Below the pieces are notes generated by a model. It saw only the letters and a program-made list of their open reading frames with translations. It was not told where the DNA came from and searched no databases. A stretch of 64,000 nt of DNA from Viridothelium virens (Eukaryota > Ascomycota > Dothideomycetes > Trypetheliales > Trypetheliaceae): NCBI GenBank assembly GCA_010094025.1, contig ML991776.1, positions 664,939 to 728,938 on the forward strand, read 5' to 3'. Shown here in pieces: positions 12,476 through 51,750 of this stretch; within the stretch, counting starts at the first letter, position 1; each line of letters opens with the position of its first letter. A program made the position numbers and the translations under genes.

Positions 12476-14594
12476 CTACAAACCCGTCCCCATAACCGTC
12501 CCGTTTTGAGCCCCAACTCCACCCCGGCCACGATAAGCGCCGCCACCACCGCGATAACCTCGTCCTCCCCTGAACCCACCCCTCCCGCGTCCCCGTCCCC
12601 TAAAGCCACCCCGATAGGCTCCACCATCCACACTGCCCTGTCCAAATGTCTCGAAATTCTTCTTGCGCTCCTCACTTCGCATCTCGCGCCCATTCACCAC
12701 TTTCGACTCATCCCGATCCTTCAGATCGCTGCTGATATCATCGAAGAAGCTCGACGCCCTGTTGTACATCGCCGTCGTCGCCGCTCCCGGAATCACCACA
12801 TCCTCCTTGTCCTTCTTCTCCGCTCCCTCCAGCCCTGCCTCTTTCACCACCGTGCCATTCGTCCCGGCCGCCGCTCCATTCTCCTCAGCGGAAGGAGGCG
12901 CCCCGCCCAACGGACTCCCACTCGCAATCGCCTCCTTGACCAAATCCTGCTTGTTGAACTTCTTGTTCGCGCTCTCGAAATCGAAGTCGTCGCTGGGCAC
13001 TTCGATCCTCCTCGCCACGCCGGCATCGTGTCCACCACGTCCGCGTCCTCGTCCCCGACCGCGGGGGGCGCCAAAGCCGGCACGACCTTGGCGCGCGTGT
13101 GCATCAGTGCGCATCTCGCTGACTTTCTGCGCGAGGTGCTGCATGGCGTCGTCGTCGGTGGTGGGTTTTGGCGCAGTGGGCTTGCCGCTTGGAGCTGTGG
13201 TGCTGGTGCCAGCGGCGCCGGATTGATTGGATGCTGCTGTGAGCTTGGCCATGGCAGCGGCGACGGCAGCGGTGGCGGTTTCGGTAGAGGGTTGGCCCAC
13301 GGGTTGGGTAGAGGGAGTAGGGGCATTAGGTTTAGAACCGATATTCGACGCGGATAGAGGAACGACAGGGATAATGCCGCCTTTGCCTCGGGGCCCAGCA
13401 GGTGCAGTCTTAGTTGCGGCTGGTTGAGCGGTAGAGGTAGAGGTGGAAGGAGGCGCGAGGGCAGAGGCAGCATCAGGTTTCGACTCGACAGGAGGTGGTG
13501 GTCCTTGTTGGGACGGTGGGCCCGTGGCTTTATTCGCGGACTGAGCATCTGGAGCTGGGGAAGGTTGAGGTTTTGCTGGTGACTGGGTATTCTGGCGTTG
13601 ATCTTTCTGGCCGATGGTGCCAATTGGCGTTGGCTGCTGTATCCGTTGATCTTGTTGATGCTGTCCCGGTGGACCTATCGGCATGTTAGGAGGACTCTGA
13701 AGCGCAAATGGCCCTTGATTCGGAAATCCCTGGCCAGGTACACCCCAGCCCGGAGGACCACCAAAACCTCCAGGAGGGCCATTGAAGCCAGGGTAGCTTG
13801 GAATACCGCCAGGAGCTCCAGGAAAGCCATGCGGACCTCCTGGTGGACCAAAGCGCGGGTTCTGTGGGAAAGGAGGGTAACCTCCAGGAGGAAACTGCTG
13901 TTGTTGAGGAAAGGTTTGTTGCTGGGGCTGACGGAACTGCTGATTCTGTTGGTTCTGCGAGACTCGCTGTGCCTGTGGCCGCGAACCAGCCTGCATAACA
14001 TGATATGTTAGCAGACTATGTTGGAGTGCGAGGCTGAGTGAATTCCAGGGATTAAAAATAAAGTAGTCAGAAGGAAGGCAACGGAAATGTCAACATGGAT
14101 TTGCGCATTCAGAAGGACTGAAGTGGTTTACATCCGTAGTAATTCATCACGCAAGCGAGCTCAAGACTGAGAACATAATTGCTTACCCCGAGTATAGCGG
14201 GATCATTGGGTACTTGTGGAGGAGGTTTGTTCTCTTTGGCCGCTTCTTCAATTCTAAGATCCTTCACATCGCTACCTCGAAAGACGATGTATTCGTAGAC
14301 ATTGTCTGATGCGGGAATTTCTTCTTCTGGGTTCTGCTTGCGACCTTCCGTGCCGTAAGACTTCACGTTCTCGAGCGCGACGGAGGAGTTTTCGGAGTTG
14401 ATTTCGTGAAGTACACCCACATATCTAGAAACGGGTCAGCAATCATCCCCTTCTGGAAAAAGGGCAGGTATCTAACCGGATGTCGCTTTTGGAAATGAGA
14501 GATATCCGTGATCTGGAACAAACGCGTTAGTAGGTGCGCCGGGCGCGGTATATCAGGGATGCCTAATTGGAACTGACCCGATAAACTCGGACAT
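12476..14594 (-). CDS. SCD6: LSM14/Scd6/Sum2 family mRNA decapping and translation repressor
   Basis: Four exons in transcript order: 14594-14578, 14512-14477, 14424-14187 and 13990-12476, total 1806 nt, 601 residues. The first two exons are only 17 and 36 nt, but joined they give the perfect LSM14 start MSEFIGSRISLISKSDIR followed by YVGVLHEINSENSSVALENV. A Gln/Pro/Gly-rich linker covers roughly residues 98-430. The FDF box (DFDFESANKKFNKQDLVKE) is near residue 433, the FFD box (YNRASSFFDDISSDLKDR) near 506 and the TFG box (KNFETFG) near 540. An RGG tail, rich in GGFRGRGRGRGGFRGG-type repeats, closes the protein. Scd6/Sum2 binds eIF4G and the decapping machinery in P-bodies and represses translation. 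All domains are present and in the usual order. The gene is divergent from the PEX39 candidate. Confidence 0.95.
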
Positions 14595-25193: not shown

Positions 25194-26216
25194 ATGGCTG
25201 CAAACTCAGAGATGTACCCGAACGTGAATCTTCCGGGATTTCGCAAAAGAAAGCGATCTGATGACGAGATTTTGAGCTTCGGGTTCGAAACGGTGATCAG
25301 TCTACACATCTGCCCAAAGGATCTTCCCTTCATACGCGCAGTTCAGGGGTAAGAGATACAAATACCTTACGGCGGCTGGGGGGTTCCTCAACTGGTAATT
25401 AATACAATGTTATTTCGACTTTACTGTTATGACCTTGTTGGTCCATGTCAACACCGCCTTAAAATGGGTCAACATGATCATAACAGTTAAACTGAGGTAA
25501 CATTGTATTAATTACCAGTTGAGGAACCCCCCAGCCGCCGGAAGGTATAGAGTCGAAGAGTCCGCTGATTTCTCGACAGAACATTCTATGACGAAATGAT
25601 CAGCATCACCGTTGGGACGACGCCAGACCGCAAAGAGTTTCACATCCACAGAGGTCTCCTCCGACACTTTTCAGATTACTTTCGAACCGCGCTGGATGGA
25701 CAGTTCAAGGAGGCTCTTGAGGGAAGATTCGACCTTCACGAAGATAGCGTAGATGTCTTTCAGGCCTTCCATAATCTGATCTATACCAATCGCCTCTATG
25801 ACGACACACAGACGCTCCCACACCGCACCATTTTTGAGATCATTGTCTTCAGTGATGTACGCGGAATTCCGGCTCTGCACAATGCCGCGATGAATGCGCT
25901 TATTTTCAAAGTGGCACACGAATGGAAACTAGCGAATGGAAAATACCTCACCTGGATCTATGATAATACTGCTACTAATTCTCCATTAAGGAAATTTTGG
26001 GTGGACTTTTACGCCAATACTCCAATGCCTAGGGGCTCAAGAATACAAGACTTCCTGAGGAACGCCGACGTTCAACGCAATTCCACGTTCTTTACAGACC
26101 TTGTCATCGCGCTGAAGACAAAGCTGGACCGTCACGAGCCTTCTTCATGGGTCAATGAAGCGGAATTTGCATCAAAAATTGACAACTGCAAGTACCACGT
26201 TCACAAAACCGTCTAG
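25194..26216 (+). CDS. BTB/POZ domain protein
   Basis: Two exons, 25194-25348 and 25580-26216, total 792 nt, 263 residues. Splicing joins ...FIRAVQ with GTFYDEMISITVG, in phase (GG plus A). The BTB core follows: FHIHRGLLRHFSDYFRTALDG, then VDVFQAFHNLIYTNRLYD and IIVFSDVRGIPALHNAAMNALI. This is the common fungal BTB-only architecture, with a degenerate C-terminal helical tail and no kelch or zinc-finger domain. BTB proteins often serve as Cullin-3 adaptors or dimerisation modules, but no partner is visible here. The N-terminal exon has a basic patch (FRKRKRSDDE) that could be a nuclear signal. The 231-nt intron is mostly a palindromic transposon-like element, described separately. Confidence 0.85.
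25349..25579 (+). other. intron of the BTB gene, carrying a MITE-like insert
   Basis: The donor is GTAAGA at 25349, and the acceptor (CGACAG) ends at 25579. Reading phase is preserved on both sides. Removing the 181-bp element and one copy of its 2-bp target duplication leaves 48 nt, which matches the size of other introns in this window. Confidence 0.75.
25365..25545. mobile_element. palindromic MITE-like element with 48-bp terminal inverted repeats
   Basis: The left arm is 25365-25412 and the right arm 25498-25545. They are reverse complements over 48 bp with one mismatch (25369 against 25541). The interior (25413-25497) continues as an imperfect palindrome, so the transcript could fold into one long hairpin. 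The element is flanked on both sides by TA (25363-25364 and 25546-25547), as expected for a TA target-site duplication of the Tc1/mariner type. It has no open frame and is therefore non-autonomous. No second full copy was found in this window. Confidence 0.8.
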
Positions 26217-27450: not shown

Positions 27451-29979
27451 TCAGGCCACTGAGTCCGCTGGAGCTCTCTTCAGCTCAAAGTTGGGCATGT
27501 GTTCAAACCACTCTTTCCGCCCGTCGTACTGGTATGCTTTGAAATCGACTCCATATGGTTTTGGTTCGAGGCAGTACAGCATGCCCAGCGGGACATCCAG
27601 ATCCGCGACCTCTTCCCGGCCCAAGCCCTTGAAGTATGCCAAGAGAACCCTCGCGACAGAGCGATGACCCACGAGCAGTACATGATCTGTCATACGCTCT
27701 AGCTCGACAATCACAGGGCGGAGACGATTGATGATGTCTAGGTAGCCTTCACCACCGGGTCCAGGGTATCGATAGTGGAGCTTGTCCGACTTGCGGATCT
27801 CGTATTCCTCAGGGAACTTGCTGCGAATATCCGCATAGGTCATGCCCTCCATAATTCCTGCATTAAGCTCGTCCAGCATGCGCATCTGCTTCATGTCAAA
27901 TTCCTCTTCGTCAAAGAACTGCGCGGTTTGGATGGAGCGCTTGAGCATCGAGGTCCAGACACAAAAACTCTTTTGCTGTGGCTCATCTTCGGCAAATGGA
28001 TCGTAATGTGGATTGGGCGGACTTGTATCACCGGAATGAGGAGGTAGGTGGCTCTTGGCTACCTTTTCGAGCTGATGAATCTCCCACAGTTTTCGCTCCT
28101 CGGCTACAAATTTGGTGAGGGCATGAGCATATTTGACACCTACGGCACTGAGATCCGAGTCACCGCCAATCTTGCCAGCCAAATTATCCATTGACTCTCC
28201 ATGACGAGTGATCCAGATCTGGCGTGGAGCAAGGTTGAAATTGAGGAGATAGTAATTTGCCTGGGCGGAGAGAAAGCCCTTGATTTGATGAGAAATGATT
28301 TTGCGACCAACGTCTATCATCTGAATGTAAGACATGTTATTCTTTTCCTCATACTTGCCAAGCGGAACATATGCTCTTTCGTAGATGGCAACACGCTTCT
28401 TGAAATCGATGAGAGAGGCAACCGGATCCTTATCCTTGTAATCGGGACCAGATAATTTTAGCCGCATATTGGATTCCAGAAGCTTGTCATCCTCGCAGAG
28501 AGATTCGAGGAATAGCACATTGAGGTCCACACCTGCCCGTTCACGTATGCGATCCATGACTGATTTGCGCCGCTGCAGTGTACTGTTTGTTGCATCCAAA
28601 ATACCAACAGAGCCATTCCCATTCAATATATAGTCTAGAAGATCGTCGAGGGTTTCCATGGCTACTTGCTCCCGGATTAGAGCTGCTTTCTTATTCTGTG
28701 GGTTGAAAAACTCTGCCGACTGCTCCATGGCTTGCGTGTCCTCTTTTTCCTCTGGCGTTGGCGCTCGCGTTAGCTCGGGAAACTTGTCTTCCAAATCAGC
28801 TGAGTTGAGCTCCGGGTTTGACCGCGATGCCTGTCGAGTCACGGCGGCTTCAGGTTCCTGATGAAGTGCAGCGACCGGGAGGGTGAAGCTCTCCTTCTCT
28901 TCTTGCGGCGTGGCACCATTCACCAATATTCTTGCTACGAGCTCAGGTGGTCCCGCTTGCGTCTTAGGACTTGGAGGGCCAGAGTGTGGAGCGTTGTTTC
29001 GGGTCGCACTCTTAGTCTTGACCGGAGATTTGGGTCCACTCGCCACCACCCGTCTCTTCTCTCCCACATTGAATATCCTGGTGTCATGTTGCAGCCAATT
29101 TAGATACCTTGCCAGCTTCTTCGTAATATAGCTCTTGCCTCGTGCCGGCAAGCCAACCATGACTATGACAAGCTTTGCGCCAACGTCGCGCTGAGCTATC
29201 CGACCATCGGGCGACACTTTGGATTTGGTCAAACCGGGGATGTCAAGAGTCGTAGGGCGCGCACGTGGGGTGCTTGTACCGGAGTTTTGACGAAGGGGCG
29301 GTATTCTGGGACTGTTTGGTGCTGTGCTTATCGGAGTGTCTGATGCAGCGTGGCCAACGCCGTCTCTCATCGGCACCATGCCAGGAACTCCGCTTGGGGT
29401 TGATTGAGGTGCACGGTGTGGAACAGGTTTGCTGGGTGGAGGCATTTGCCTGGATAGGCCCTCCCGTAGCTTCTCGGCATGTCGTGCAAGAGCTAGATTG
29501 TTCTCATCGGCGCTACTGTGCTTCTCTTGCGGTGGTGGGTTGGTGTTGCTGTCGACGGAGTTTCGGGAAGAGGTCCTGCTCATGATAGCGGACTGAGCGA
29601 GAACGGAGTGCTGACTTTGTCGACGAGGGTTTTGATACTGGAAGGTAGGCTGTGAGGTGGGATTGCCGGGGAGAGCGTCGGTGGTGATCAGAGGCATCCT
29701 TCTGAGCTGGAGACTGTTGTCGCAGTCGGTCGAAGCTTCAGGGTCTGATGCTTTGCTGGGATCCGCGCTCGGAGCTACCCTAGCCCTAGCTGGAATATGA
29801 CGTCTCCGTGCAGACGCGTCGACGTTGATCCGTTCGCTCGCGCTCGCTGCCGTCAGAGAGCTGAAAGGAAGTTGTAAAGGGAACAGCGAGGTGCACCTTC
29901 TTTTCTGAAAGTGATCGCGACCGCAAGAAAGCTCCCTAGATGCGGGAGACTTTTGGATGGTCACGGCGGAGGTAACCAA
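27451..29979 (-). CDS. bifunctional 6-phosphofructo-2-kinase / fructose-2,6-bisphosphatase
   Basis: A single frame of 842 residues. The kinase Walker A loop (GLPARGKSYITKKL) is near residue 278, and the second kinase motif GILDATNSTLQRRKSVMDRI near 495. The phosphatase domain starts with the catalytic histidine motif ITRHGESMDNLAGKIGGDS near 592 and ends with the second histidine in LLVGHRSVARVLLAYF. Both catalytic sites look intact, so synthesis and breakdown of fructose 2,6-bisphosphate are both expected; this cytosolic effector controls glycolysis. Two additions stand out: a 240-residue disordered N-terminus, and about 110 residues inserted into the kinase domain after NVGEKRR (rich in Ser-Pro sites) before SAEFFNPQNKKA. 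The true start may be the ATG at 29697 rather than 29979. Confidence 0.93.
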   Translation of the reverse strand: MVTSAVTIQKSPASRELSCGRDHFQKRRCTSLFPLQLPFSSLTAASASERINVDASARRRHIPARARVAPSADPSKASDPEASTDCDNSLQLRRMPLITTDALPGNPTSQPTFQYQNPRRQSQHSVLAQSAIMSRTSSRNSVDSNTNPPPQEKHSSADENNLALARHAEKLREGLSRQMPPPSKPVPHRAPQSTPSGVPGMVPMRDGVGHAASDTPISTAPNSPRIPPLRQNSGTSTPRARPTTLDIPGLTKSKVSPDGRIAQRDVGAKLVIVMVGLPARGKSYITKKLARYLNWLQHDTRIFNVGEKRRVVASGPKSPVKTKSATRNNAPHSGPPSPKTQAGPPELVARILVNGATPQEEKESFTLPVAALHQEPEAAVTRQASRSNPELNSADLEDKFPELTRAPTPEEKEDTQAMEQSAEFFNPQNKKAALIREQVAMETLDDLLDYILNGNGSVGILDATNSTLQRRKSVMDRIRERAGVDLNVLFLESLCEDDKLLESNMRLKLSGPDYKDKDPVASLIDFKKRVAIYERAYVPLGKYEEKNNMSYIQMIDVGRKIISHQIKGFLSAQANYYLLNFNLAPRQIWITRHGESMDNLAGKIGGDSDLSAVGVKYAHALTKFVAEERKLWEIHQLEKVAKSHLPPHSGDTSPPNPHYDPFAEDEPQQKSFCVWTSMLKRSIQTAQFFDEEEFDMKQMRMLDELNAGIMEGMTYADIRSKFPEEYEIRKSDKLHYRYPGPGGEGYLDIINRLRPVIVELERMTDHVLLVGHRSVARVLLAYFKGLGREEVADLDVPLGMLYCLEPKPYGVDFKAYQYDGRKEWFEHMPNFELKRAPADSVA

Positions 29980-31197
29980 GCCAGGTCCGGAATGCCTAAT
30001 AAGGTTCCCGTCCTAGGTGATCAGGCGAATCGCAAATGGCTTTAAGGGTGGTGGATCGAACGGGGCGTGCCGCCGAGCAAGTCCAGGGGCTGAGTCTCTT
30101 ATGGACCTGAGCCTGAGATACTACTAAGCTCGAGTCCAGTCAAGTCCAGTCAAGTCCTCAGCGGACTTCGGGAGGAGGAGCGCATTGGCAGCAATTAAAT
30201 CCTCCCTCTCGGACCCGGAGTCCGCAGCAAGTCAGACCTGAGAGCCAAGCTGACCGTGTGCCCCATCTTGTATGTGAATGTGCGTCGGGTAAAAGTCATC
30301 GACATGGTGGAGAACTTGGAAGTCTTGGGTCGCTTTGTCAAACGCACGTCGAGTCGAGCTGTGCACAAGTCGGCGAAGTAGCCTTGTCCGGAAACAGGCT
30401 GTGCGACTGACTAGGCAACACTTTGCCTACCTTTGGCATGAACGTAGGAACCTTTGGAAAGGATCAGTCACACAGCGCCGGACCCGCACTTGGTCGCCAA
30501 TTACACTCTATAGAAAAGTTGCCCAGACTTGACAACCTTGAGGGCTGCTCCCGGCTGCTCGCCGCCAAGACTCTCACTTACAACTCAGCCAAGAAACCTA
30601 AATCGCCAACGGCACCTCGTATATGTAACTTGGCAACGTCGCGACCGCTATCTGATGCTCGGTCGGATTTTGAAATCCTCAGAGGACGTCGGTGATCGAT
30701 TCTTGTTCTCTCCTTCTGTCAAATTTAATGTCTTCGCATCAGCGCTCTTGATCATCGTGCTATGAGATGGCTATATTAGCAAGACAAGTCAGGTAGAGTG
30801 CTATTTCGAGTATCTCTCCATGCACTTTAACTTTCAATTTCCAATTCAAGTGCTCTCTGGTACACCAAGTGATCTTCCCACTTTTCTCTCAGGTTGTTGG
30901 AGACAGCTTTCACGCAAGGGGTCATATAGCCAATATATTTTACCCCTTTACTCATCTACGCGCCACGTATTAGTCTACCCAGATTCTACCCAACATGCGG
31001 GCAACCTATAATCAAAGCGTTCACGTCCTTCCGCAGTGGCATTTGAGAGTATCGAAGAACCAGAGACCAAGGAGGAATCTACCCATGAGATTCATCCACG
31101 ACGTCTCTTTCCGATGACGAGCAAGGCTATCAAGCGGTAGATCACAACAATACACAACCGAGTGTTCCAAAGGCTCGACTAAGCCGCAGTCCACATA
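29980..31197. other. intergenic, PFK-2 promoter side
   Basis: This is the 5' flank of the PFK-2 gene (minus), followed by unassigned sequence. A short AGTCCAGTCA direct repeat lies near 30132-30155. No supported gene. Confidence 0.5.
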
Positions 31198-40377: not shown

Positions 40378-42986
40378 TTATCCTATCACATTGCCAATTC
40401 GATCCATGAGTCTCAGCCCTCCGACTGCCTCTCTGACTACCGTCACTGAATTGACCAGTCCACTCTCATCCCATCCAAAATCAATGATACCACCACCTCT
40501 CACCCTCAATCCTTTCACACTGCCTCCGCCCCATCTTGCAGGAATAGCTGGTCCGAGAACAACTGTTCTCCCTTGTCCGTTGGCCCTCCCATTTCCGCCG
40601 GTAACTTGTCCTCCCACACTGCTGCTAAAATCTGGCAGATCAACTACAAGCATACTTAACATTGCCGCAGCGAGCCCGAAATTCGCATCAATCTGAAACG
40701 GCGTGTTATGCCCCGAGTACATACTGAACCCATTCGGTGCGAAATTGCTTCCTGCCGCAAGCCGTAGTTCATAGTCGGCTTCATCCGTCTCGTTGAGTCT
40801 CGCCCAGCACGCTGCTCGCCACACTTTCTCCCAGCCTGCATTGGAGTCGACGATGCCAGGGCCACGGCTCCAGAGGCTGGTGGCGACCGCGTTCTGGATA
40901 GTCGAGTTCGTGTAGCCAGAGGCGATACCGGAAACGGAGAATCCAGGGTACCATCCCACGAGCTGCGAAAGGTGGCGATGGGTGTCGTTCTCGAAGTCAT
41001 AGCCGAAGGAGTCGGGGACCTTCCATTCTTTGATCTCGCCCCAGCTGCCAATGTGGATTCCGGTATCGAGATGGGCGAGTGCGCCGCTGACGTTCGCGAA
41101 GAAGGCTGCGTCGTCCGAGCCAGAGACGTTGGCATAGGGAATGATCGAGGATGTTGAAAGGATGCTCGTGAAGAGTTGACTGAGCAATTGCTGATAGTGC
41201 GTGCAAGCAAAAGTTGTAGGCCCATGTTCTGGGGAGTTACATGGATTGACGACAAATGTGGAGTCATTGAAATAAGCATCCGGTTGAAGTTGTGAAAGCC
41301 AGAACTGAGCAACGCCCTTCATAAGGGGATAACCTTGGTCAATGAACCAGGAAGTATTCTGTGAGTATGAGTAGTGGTCGTAGACTTGCTGCATCATCCA
41401 AGCCGCGGACGCGGGATCTGGCGTTGGTCAATTGGGCTCACAGTCTCCTAGAAGGGCTAATTTAGTGGAAGACATACAATTAGCCCAAGATGCATCATAT
41501 TTCATTGCAGTGCTCCCAAATATGTTCAACTCATCATGAGTCACCCAGCCTGGCGCGCCGTACAAGAGCTGGGCAGTCTCCATACCCCTCGGCACCCAGG
41601 TTTCCTGCATGTAATCCCAAAGTGCGGCTAGAACCCCTTCGCCAAGGCCAGTTTGATCAGCAATCCAATAATTCATCTGCAGATTAATGTTGGCGTGGTA
41701 ATCAGCACTCCAGGCTCCATACAGGTCAGTACTCCATCGCCCTTGAAGGTTGGAAGGAAGAGAATTATCGCGAGATGATGTAAAAGATAGATGCCGGGCG
41801 TAGTCAAATAGTAACGACTCGAAGTAAGGATCGCCAGTTCCATTAATGTTATACCTAGATACTATCTCTGAGGTCTCCAGTCCTGCAGAGCCGGCGATGT
41901 CGGGGAGACTGAGACTAAATGTGCTGGCTAGCGATTGGTAATCTGCGACTGCAGCCTGACGAATATCATTCTCCGGCTTGCTCGTTGCATCAGAGACGAG
42001 TGCGTCAACTGACTCGGTTGGATCGTTGCCCCTAAAGGAGAAGTTATTGGCGGCGTTACCGTACTGCTTCACATAATTAGTGTCAGCTCCAACCAGGATG
42101 CTTAGACTGCGTTTTCCGCCAACAGATGGCACTGTCATCCAGGCGCCGGTACTGTTCGTGCACGTGGCTGTTACGTTGGTATCCGCTAACTTTGCGGTGG
42201 CATAATATTTCATTCCAGTAGTATCAACGGCTGCAGTGAGACCTGCAAAACCAATACTATTCTTACTGCATGTTGCATTTTGCAAGCTGGAATCCACCAG
42301 CGTGTTTTCCAGAGCTATTCCGACTGCTGGTAATGTCGAGTTGGACTCGAGCTGATAAACACAGATTTGATCTGGATAGGAGCAGTAGACCCTGGACGTA
42401 TAGCTTACGCCGGCATCAGTCACGAACGAGGTGGTATGGATTCCAGTAGTGAGATCGAGTGACCTATTGTAGCTCGAAGTTGAGGTAATTCCCGCAATAG
42501 ACACACTTAGATTTCCCAGGACTTGATAGCTTCCATAACAATCATATTCACTGCCTAATAGCTGGGAAACGTTTCCGGTCCCGTTTTGGAATATCCATTG
42601 GCGAATGCTTGGTAGAGAGGTATATCTTTCGGATGAAGGATTGCCGCCAGTATAGTTCTGACAGATCGTCAGTATCAAGTCAGTAGTGATACTCCTTGTG
42701 AACTTACACTGCACTCAAAAGGACCCCCGGACCATAGTGAATCCACGTTCAAGTTGATCGATTCAGACCCTGGGTTACCAAATGGCATTGCTGGGCCTGC
42801 GTAAGTCAAGGCAAATTACTCCATTGAACAATACCTACCTCCAAGACGACCATTTCCAACTGCGTAAGATTGCTGAATGACATCGTCCGCTGCAGCTGGA
42901 GTACTTGACCAGAGGGACTTTGCCTCCACTCTTGTAAAAGTGCCAATTCCGGCTGTTAGGAAAATGCCCAGGTGTAATCCAACCAT
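40378..42986 (-). CDS. secreted GH95 alpha-L-fucosidase
   Basis: Four exons in transcript order: 42986-42839, 42796-42708, 42657-41478 and 41417-40378, total 2457 nt, 818 residues, the usual GH95 length. The start at 42986 opens a signal peptide ([20 protein letters not shown]). The N-terminal beta domain has [20 protein letters not shown] and [17 protein letters not shown]. The catalytic (alpha/alpha)6 barrel keeps the residues known for this family: the paired asparagines in [15 protein letters not shown], the glutamate in [10 protein letters not shown] and the aspartate in [14 protein letters not shown]95 enzymes remove alpha-L-fucose (or related L-galactose) from glycans such as xyloglucan. 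There are many N-glycosylation sequons. It has no neighbouring carbohydrate gene. Confidence 0.93.
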
Positions 42987-49557: not shown

Positions 49558-50920
49558 TCAACCGGCTTCCCCTCTCCTATCCCTCGCCTCCTTCGCGCCC
49601 AACACGGCTAATCCATCGGCTGCTAGATTCCCAGGGTCCTTCGCATGCCCCTTCACCCACTCAAATACAGTCTGACTCCCAACCTCCTCCCGCAGCCGGA
49701 TCTTCTCGAGCACTTTCTCGATGATGTCGCGGTTCTCAACGGGTTTCTTCGCTGATGTCTGCCAGTTCTTCTGCTCCCAGGACCGATGCCATACCGTGAC
49801 GCAGTTGATGGCGTACGAGGAGTCGGACAGGATGGTGGCGTCAAGGTGGTGCGGAGTGAGGTCAAGGGCGCGGAGGAGGGCGGTGAGTTCGGCGCGTTGG
49901 TTGGTCTGCCGGGGGCCGGGAAGGGGCTCAGAGAGGTTGCTGAGTGGGTGTTAGTGATGTAGTCATTGAGTGATGAGAAATTCTGTGCGGGAATAAATAG
50001 GGAAACGTACCGTGGGTCATCTGGACCGAAGAAGACGCCCACACCCGCAATGGATCCGTTCTGACCATTGCCTAAACTACTTCCGTCGGTGTATATTCGT
50101 AGCATGCTTCCCTTACTGGGCCCTGTGGCATGCCATTTCGTCGCATTTCTTTGCTCTTCGCTCTTGTATTTGACTTTGCCAGTCGCCACGTCTAGGATTA
50201 CATTGGTATCAAACCCATCCTCAGCGTCCGGAGGAAGTGGGCCAAGTCCGGGCTCATATTCGTCATCTTTTCCGTCAAGGCCGGGCGTTGGGCTTGCTGC
50301 AGCACCGTTGGTTTTCTTGGAGCTTGCGCTGTCCCTGCTTTTCTTGGCTTTCTTGGCTGGCGGTGTACCATCTGCGGGAACAACGACGTTCGAGACAGCA
50401 TCCCCCACATTGGGTGCTGCATTCACAAACGCTTCAGCTTCAGCCCGAGTGGTGAAGGCCTTGTGCTTGGGACGGGTCCAACCAGTGATCTGCTGCTGGG
50501 CCGAAGCCCAATCTTCGTAGACGCCAGGGACGCGGCCATTTTGTACAGCATAAAATTTTTGAGGCCCTGAAGATGCTAATGAGGAAGACTTAGAGCTAGA
50601 AGTGGCATTCATAAAAGCTTCTGCGTCGGTGAGTGAGGTAAATGATTTGACTAAAGAGGCAGTCAGTACTTCGGAGTTCACTCCGAACGAGTAATCCGGA
50701 GCCTGCACGTACATGTAGCATTCTTGAACCCTCTAACTTGCTCCAAGCATTCCGCCCAGCTATGATATATCCCTGGCTCGTGTCCGACGCGGACAGAGTA
50801 GAACTTTGGCGGAGGCTCTCGCTTGCGCTTCGTACCTGAAGAGGCGGAAGTAGGGATCGGCGAAGTGAGGTTGGGCTCGCCAGCTTCTTGGGCCGCGGCG
50901 GTATCGATCTGGACTTCCAT
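49558..50920 (-). CDS. ribonuclease H1 with two viroplasmin-like domains
   Basis: Three exons in transcript order: 50920-50713, 50650-50011 and 49939-49558, total 1230 nt, 409 residues. Two hybrid-binding (RNHCP/Cauli_VI) domains are visible: KFYSVRVGHEPGIYHSWAECLEQVRGFKNATF and FYAVQNGRVPGVYEDWASAQ. A Lys/Ser-rich linker follows. The RNase H fold then supplies the four acidic residues: IYTDGSSLGNG, QRAELTALLRALDL, LSDSSYAINCV and the aspartate in NLAADG after WVKGHAKD. It degrades the RNA strand of RNA/DNA hybrids in nucleus and mitochondria. I chose the ATG at 50920 because the first domain follows it. The frame stays open upstream to 51448, which may encode a mitochondrial form. The gene is divergent from the DUF202 gene. 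Confidence 0.93.
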
Positions 50921-51750
50921 GGTGGACGATTCGAAAAAAGAAAGGCGACTTCCAAGCTGCCGACCCAAGTTGTGGCGCTGCAGCAAACCACCTATAAGAG
51001 GATTTGCCCCCTGGCCCAGAAATGGGGCCAATTGAGGTAGCAATGTTCTCAAGTACGGTAGCCTCCACGCGAGTGCCTGTATCAGAGGTCTACGAAAGAG
51101 ACCCGTCAAGCCGTAGCCAGGAATGCTGATTGGCGCGGCAGTCTTGCCAGTCAGGATTTCACGGCTGGGAGCAAATGAATCTTGGTGTAGCAGATCTGGT
51201 TTGTTTAGGGGCCCTTGGGAAGGTTGGTCGTGGGGGAAGTTGGAGAGGAAGTGGGCAGGTAGTGGGCAGGTAGTGGGCAGGAGATGGGGAGGAGCTCGGT
51301 AATAAGGCGAGGGAGAGTTGGGGGATGGTGGGCACGAGCTGAGCCAGGTTGGGGGCATGAAGAGAGGGGGTGCCGGTCGGAGGAGGTGAATGGGCATGGG
51401 GGGCTGGTTAGGGTGCGGAGGGGGGACTTTGGGGGGTGTGGTACCCAATCGCGCCCACGATCCCGAACTCCACTGACTGCATCATCCCACCTCCGCCCTC
51501 TCCCTTTGCCCTCCACATCCCATCCCGTCTTTGTTAGGTAGGCTTGACCGTCTCGGCACCTCAACCGCACCTCAATCGTACCATTCCCCTGCGCAAATGT
51601 GAACAGACTGTGTCAATCGTGCCACGCTTGCGAGCAGTTCCAATCCCTTACCTCTGTGGACTTCCCGTTTAATGAGAAGTCGCTCCTCCCAGACGACCGA
51701 TTCTGAAACGAAGGATGCCTTCTTGCAATTGACGTGACTGATCAGATAGA
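50921..51750. promoter_or_regulatory. divergent spacer, RNase H1 / DUF202 gene
   Basis: This region holds the promoters of RNase H1 (minus) and of the DUF202 gene (plus). On the minus strand an open frame in phase with RNase H1 covers 50921-51448 and includes a leucine/arginine-rich stretch (see findings). An AGTGGGCAGGT repeat lies at 51249-51280. Confidence 0.5.

Follow-up and report, generated by a model that had tools for sequence, protein, structure and literature searches.

DNA transposons residing in fungal introns have already been published: in Zymoseptoria tritici, 56% of the copies of one such family, DTH_Donna, are reported to lie in introns, and introns overall account for 1% of transposable element counts (PMC10936205). 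Among fungal miniature inverted-repeat transposable elements (MITEs), six Tc1/mariner MITEs of 481 to 813 nt have been described from Sclerotinia sclerotiorum (PMC4188875), and in Epichloe MITEs are reported near genes (PMC6374014). Introners create introns, either carrying splice sites with them or recruiting one or both at the insertion site (PMC9860276). In a stwintron, one intron is nested within another and interrupts a splice element of the outer one. Symmetrical stwintrons of fungi are described as having inverted repeats of 45 to 55 nt with no flanking duplications (PMC8469720). A stem within an intron can also affect its splicing: in yeast RPS17B, according to the published account, it shortens the branchpoint distance and promotes splicing (PMC2536676).

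Here we describe a palindromic element within the predicted intron of a BTB-domain gene of Viridothelium virens. We consider it likely that the element is a TA-targeting, nonautonomous MITE of ∼181 bp, most likely mobilized by Tc1/mariner-pogo machinery, that inserted into a pre-existing 48-nt intron. It resembles MITEs of the Tc1/mariner-pogo group in being short and noncoding, with long terminal inverted repeats and TA at both ends. However, it is much shorter than the Tc1/mariner MITEs described from S. sclerotiorum (PMC4188875), its terminal bases, CCTT, are not assigned to a named family, and no partner transposase was found among 20 scanned proteins of the window (the whole 64-kb stretch of DNA that we analyzed). 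As a probable fungal DNA transposon within an intron, it is like DTH_Donna (PMC10936205). It shares extensive inverted-repeat symmetry with introner-like elements and symmetrical stwintrons, with arms of 48 nt as against the 45 to 55 nt reported there; here, the symmetry lies inside an intron that apparently already existed and includes no splice site that is used, and it has TA at its ends, whereas no flanking duplications are reported for the stwintrons (PMC8469720). The stem lies between donor and branch site, as in RPS17B, but unlike the promotion of splicing reported for that intron, its effect here is a prediction, with a donor-to-branch distance not clearly below that of shuffled inserts (PMC2536676).

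The host gene and its surroundings

The coordinates of the gene, its intron, and the parts of the element are collected in Table 1. Joining the predicted exons (ATG at 25194 through 25348, then 25580-26213) yields a protein of 263 aa, in which Pfam places a BTB domain at residues 63 to 131 (E = 1.2e-6). When compared with solved structures by phmmer, the product weakly matches Kelch-like protein 11 (E = 0.0038) in an alignment that starts at residue 52, which is the exon junction; the list of matches is weak (27 sequences up to E = 10) and also contains unrelated proteins, ribosomal L23 among them. The proposed splice is supported by where the reading frame resumes, at the beginning of the BTB domain, as both Pfam and the fit of the phmmer alignment to the junction indicate. 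If the intron were retained, an in-frame TAA at 25350-25352 would stop the BTB protein after 52 residues. A search of a prokaryote collection, in which few fungal sequences are expected, with the ORF at 25569-26213 (exon 2 plus a few intron-encoded residues) returned 36 pattern-matched stretches and no confirmed relatives.

Table 1. Features of the BTB gene, its intron, and the palindromic element (positions within the 64-kb window)
Feature	Position	Strand	Description
BTB gene predicted exon 1	25194..25348	+	from the ATG up to GG|GTAAGA; 51 complete codons and 2 further bases
Intron, 231 nt, GT-AG	25349..25579	+	GTAAGA donor, CTGAT branch-like site at 25565-25569, CAG acceptor
5' part of presumed ancestral 48-nt intron	25349..25364	+	ends in TA
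TA, putative 5' target-site duplication copy	25363..25364	.	sequence
MITE-like palindromic element, 181 nt	25365..25545	.	150/181 positions self-complementary
Left terminal inverted repeat, 48 nt	25365..25412	+	47/48 versus right arm
Inner, more diverged palindrome plus loop	25413..25497	.	28/42 positions paired
Right terminal inverted repeat, 48 nt	25498..25545	-	47/48 versus left arm
TA, putative 3' target-site duplication copy	25546..25547	.	sequence
3' part of presumed ancestral 48-nt intron	25548..25579	+	branch-like site and acceptor
BTB gene predicted exon 2	25580..26216	+	BTB/POZ domain; stop codon 26214-26216

With the element and one TA taken out, the intron is 48 nt long and still complete, with its GTAAGA, CTGAT, and CAG motifs. 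The original prediction gave both of these lengths, 231 nt and 48 nt, and both hold; its further statement that 48 nt is the size of the other introns here is roughly right, judged against three homology-anchored introns rather than a census: two in the gene for the complex I subunit NDUFS1 (47 nt, 47220-47174, and 63 nt, 45578-45516) and one in a GH95 gene (60 nt, 41477-41418). The GH95 intron, GTATGT...CAG (41418-41477, minus strand), would remove an in-frame stop; its basis is that stop together with a split Pfam match, and it contains no CTRAY motif.

The window has a GC content of 50.4%, no tRNA genes by ARAGORN, and one snoRNA at the Rfam gathering threshold. This snoRNA, Z13/snr52 (RF00335, 75.8 bits; 14059-14159, minus strand), overlaps the upstream end of an ORF with an FDF domain (12476-14089, minus strand) and is perhaps intron or leader encoded. 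The Pfam scan covered 20 window proteins, a minority given the 52 window ORFs of at least 150 aa, and 4 of the 20 had no match. The families matched include Velvet factor, ARS-binding protein 2, complex I NDUFS1, GH95, and 6-phosphofructo-2-kinase; no transposase family was found in these 20 proteins. Together with the short GT-AG introns, these families suggest a filamentous ascomycete. In the solved structure of PFKFB3, two parts of the protein are almost contiguous that, in the 6PF2K/FBPase-like ORF (27451-30009, minus strand), lie ∼100 residues apart (ORF residues 321 to 430); the extra residues would represent an insertion or unspliced introns. Two overlapping ORFs at 49653-51481 (minus strand), each of which matches the ribonuclease H1 N-terminal (Cauli_VI) domain, are perhaps one gene with an intron.

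Architecture and ends of the palindrome

The outer arms of the element are reverse complements at all but one of their 48 positions, as the original prediction stated, although the repeat extends slightly beyond the ends given there: it spans 25362-25548 and takes in the flanking ATA and TAT. A repeat search reports it as 90-nt arms (25362-25451 and 25459-25548) that are 86% complementary. The center, too, is palindromic, as had been proposed; its 28 matches in 42 positions are beyond chance, since none of 20,000 shuffles reached that number. Nothing else in the window compares with this structure: the next inverted repeats, at spacings of up to 700 nt, have arms of only 12 nt, and a second, ungapped scan (score threshold of 13) returned this element alone in the window and none in one shuffled window. 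The 181 nt are noncoding, with 2 to 9 stops per frame in all six frames and a longest open stretch of 41 codons.

The 15 mismatches between the arms (10 transitions and 5 transversions) are not spread evenly: the outer arms have 1 in 48 positions and the inner arms have 14 in 42 (Fisher p = 8e-5). That 48/42 split was picked post hoc; when we repeated the test over 36 split points, none of 1,000 permutations gave a value as low. Such a pattern is expected of a transposon if its ends are what the transposase requires, and is unexpected if one local duplication had decayed uniformly. It therefore bears on an alternative in which no transposon is involved, namely, that the palindrome is a one-off local inverted duplication made by template switching during replication. 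Two observations would fit such an origin: the absence of a second copy in the 64-kb window, and the fact that a palindrome spanning 25362-25548 includes TA and so has it at both ends automatically. The clustering of mismatches in the inner arms speaks against it, as does the finding that the flanks, cut exactly at the TA, add up to a complete intron, and we regard it as improbable. Transposition is the reading we favor, on the strength of the conserved outer and diverged inner arms together with the intact intron formed by the sequence beyond the TA; both are stronger evidence than the TA ends.

Those ends read TA before CCTT on the left and TA after AAGG on the right, so the TA that had been predicted at both ends is present. 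As evidence for a target-site duplication this is weak: TA reads the same on both strands and the inverted repeat extends through it, so its presence on both sides follows from the symmetry. TA is the target of the Tc1/mariner-pogo group, and plant Stowaway elements are among the MITEs of that kind. PIF/Harbinger elements make a 3-bp target-site duplication; the 3-bp flanks here, ATA and TAT, are not a repeat, which speaks against membership in that superfamily. In this the element also differs from DTH_Donna, which has been assigned to Harbinger (PMC10936205). We infer that the element was probably mobilized in trans by a transposase of the Tc1/mariner-pogo type. A text search of the literature for a 13-nt string from the arms found no matching paper.

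The original prediction had left a choice between a MITE and a copy of an introner-like family. The first fits best, given an element that is short and noncoding, with long terminal inverted repeats and TA ends, and that leaves a 48-nt intron behind; the second fits poorly. It would have the hairpin bring the intron with it, either as one unit of 231 nt or with splice sites taken over from the surrounding exon. There are precedents for parts of such a scenario: fungal introner-like elements are reported to have inverted repeats or stable structures, among them the repeats of the symmetrical Hypoxylaceae introns (PMC8469720); some introners are described as co-opting both of their splice sites from the sequence into which they insert (PMC9860276); and in Z. 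tritici, 56% of the copies of one DNA transposon family are reported in introns (PMC10936205). At this locus, however, the donor (25349), the branch-like site (25565), and the acceptor (25579) are all outside the element, although a splice site of its own is not always required of an introner, and the inverted repeat leaves 13 nt of the intron free on the donor side and 31 nt on the acceptor side. TA adjoins the palindrome rather than the ends of the intron, and blastn found no similar intron in the window at E values up to 1. Moreover, the flanks alone make up a complete intron that contains the in-frame TAA, so that the flanking sequence was probably intron, and not exon, before the insertion. 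Neither an introner nor a stwintron is evident here, and creation of the intron by the hairpin, even with both splice sites recruited from its surroundings, is unlikely.

Predicted folding and splicing of the enlarged intron

As RNA, the 231-nt intron has a predicted folding energy of −136.7 kcal/mol (z = −19.1), and none of 200 shuffles folded as well; the element with its two TAs (25363-25547) folded as DNA gives a z of −18.1. Mean predicted pairing within the insert is 0.82, compared to 0.58 for shuffled inserts. The predicted pairing of donor, branch site, and acceptor is nearly the same with the element (0.68, 0.86, and 0.70) as without it (0.70, 0.87, and 0.68). The mean change in flank pairing is 0.072 for the real insert versus 0.171 for mononucleotide-shuffled inserts, 6 of 200 of which were as low. 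These predictions support the view that the element disturbs the pairing of its flanks little.

All three GT and three YAG sites that lie wholly within the element have a predicted pairing probability of 1.0. Sites that straddle its right edge are partly open, with values of 0.74 for the GT at 25545 and 0.49 for the AG ending at 25550. Because the cryptic sites would be buried and the true splice signals would keep close to their former pairing, splicing should still take out the enlarged intron. We also considered whether the hairpin significantly shortens the distance from donor to branch site. The predicted path is 25.5 with the element, 29.6 in the flank-only intron, and 35.1 on average with shuffled inserts (SD of 8.3, lowest of 12.2, n = 60), so the value with the element is not clearly shorter than that of shuffled inserts, and we set this idea aside. 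In silico, the element looks splice neutral, with no advantage evident.

The earlier suggestion that the hairpin could affect splicing is therefore not borne out by these predictions. In a further reading, the hairpin persists because it serves a function, as a source of small RNAs or as a regulator of BTB splicing. The long predicted stem might serve as a Dicer substrate, and intron retention would truncate the BTB protein; the near identity of splice-signal pairing to that in the flank-only intron, as modeled, leaves no switch evident. We judge a retained function to be very improbable.

Our preferred reading, a MITE in a pre-existing intron, would run as follows. A transposase acting in trans would have inserted the element into the 48-nt intron, at a TA downstream of the donor and upstream of the branch-like site. 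In the transcript, the element would close on itself as a long hairpin, burying the GT and AG cryptic sites of its arms and leaving the pairing of the genuine splice signals nearly unchanged, and the enlarged intron would still be spliced out.

Further copies and implications

No second copy of the element was found in the 64-kb window. A relaxed search of the window with the arm gave three matches, which were the element itself twice and one with 3 mismatches; 6 of 100 shuffles gave at least three. Exact arm patterns, which do match the window, had no hits in viral contigs or prokaryote genomes, and a blastn search of plasmids and phages with the intron gave no match; all of these collections are expected to contain few fungal sequences, and a fungal element is unlikely to turn up in them, so that these negative results carry little weight.

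What we see is most probably one intron-borne MITE, an ordinary kind of event. There is a bolder version, to which we give little credence: that the element belongs to a palindromic, TA-targeting MITE family that prefers short introns because its hairpin hides the cryptic splice sites it carries without altering the splice signals of the host. If such a family were real, it would occupy a splice-neutral transposon niche, distinct from that of introners, which make introns; and if it proved to be intron biased, near-perfect palindromes would be a means by which transposons inhabit short fungal introns without breaking splicing.
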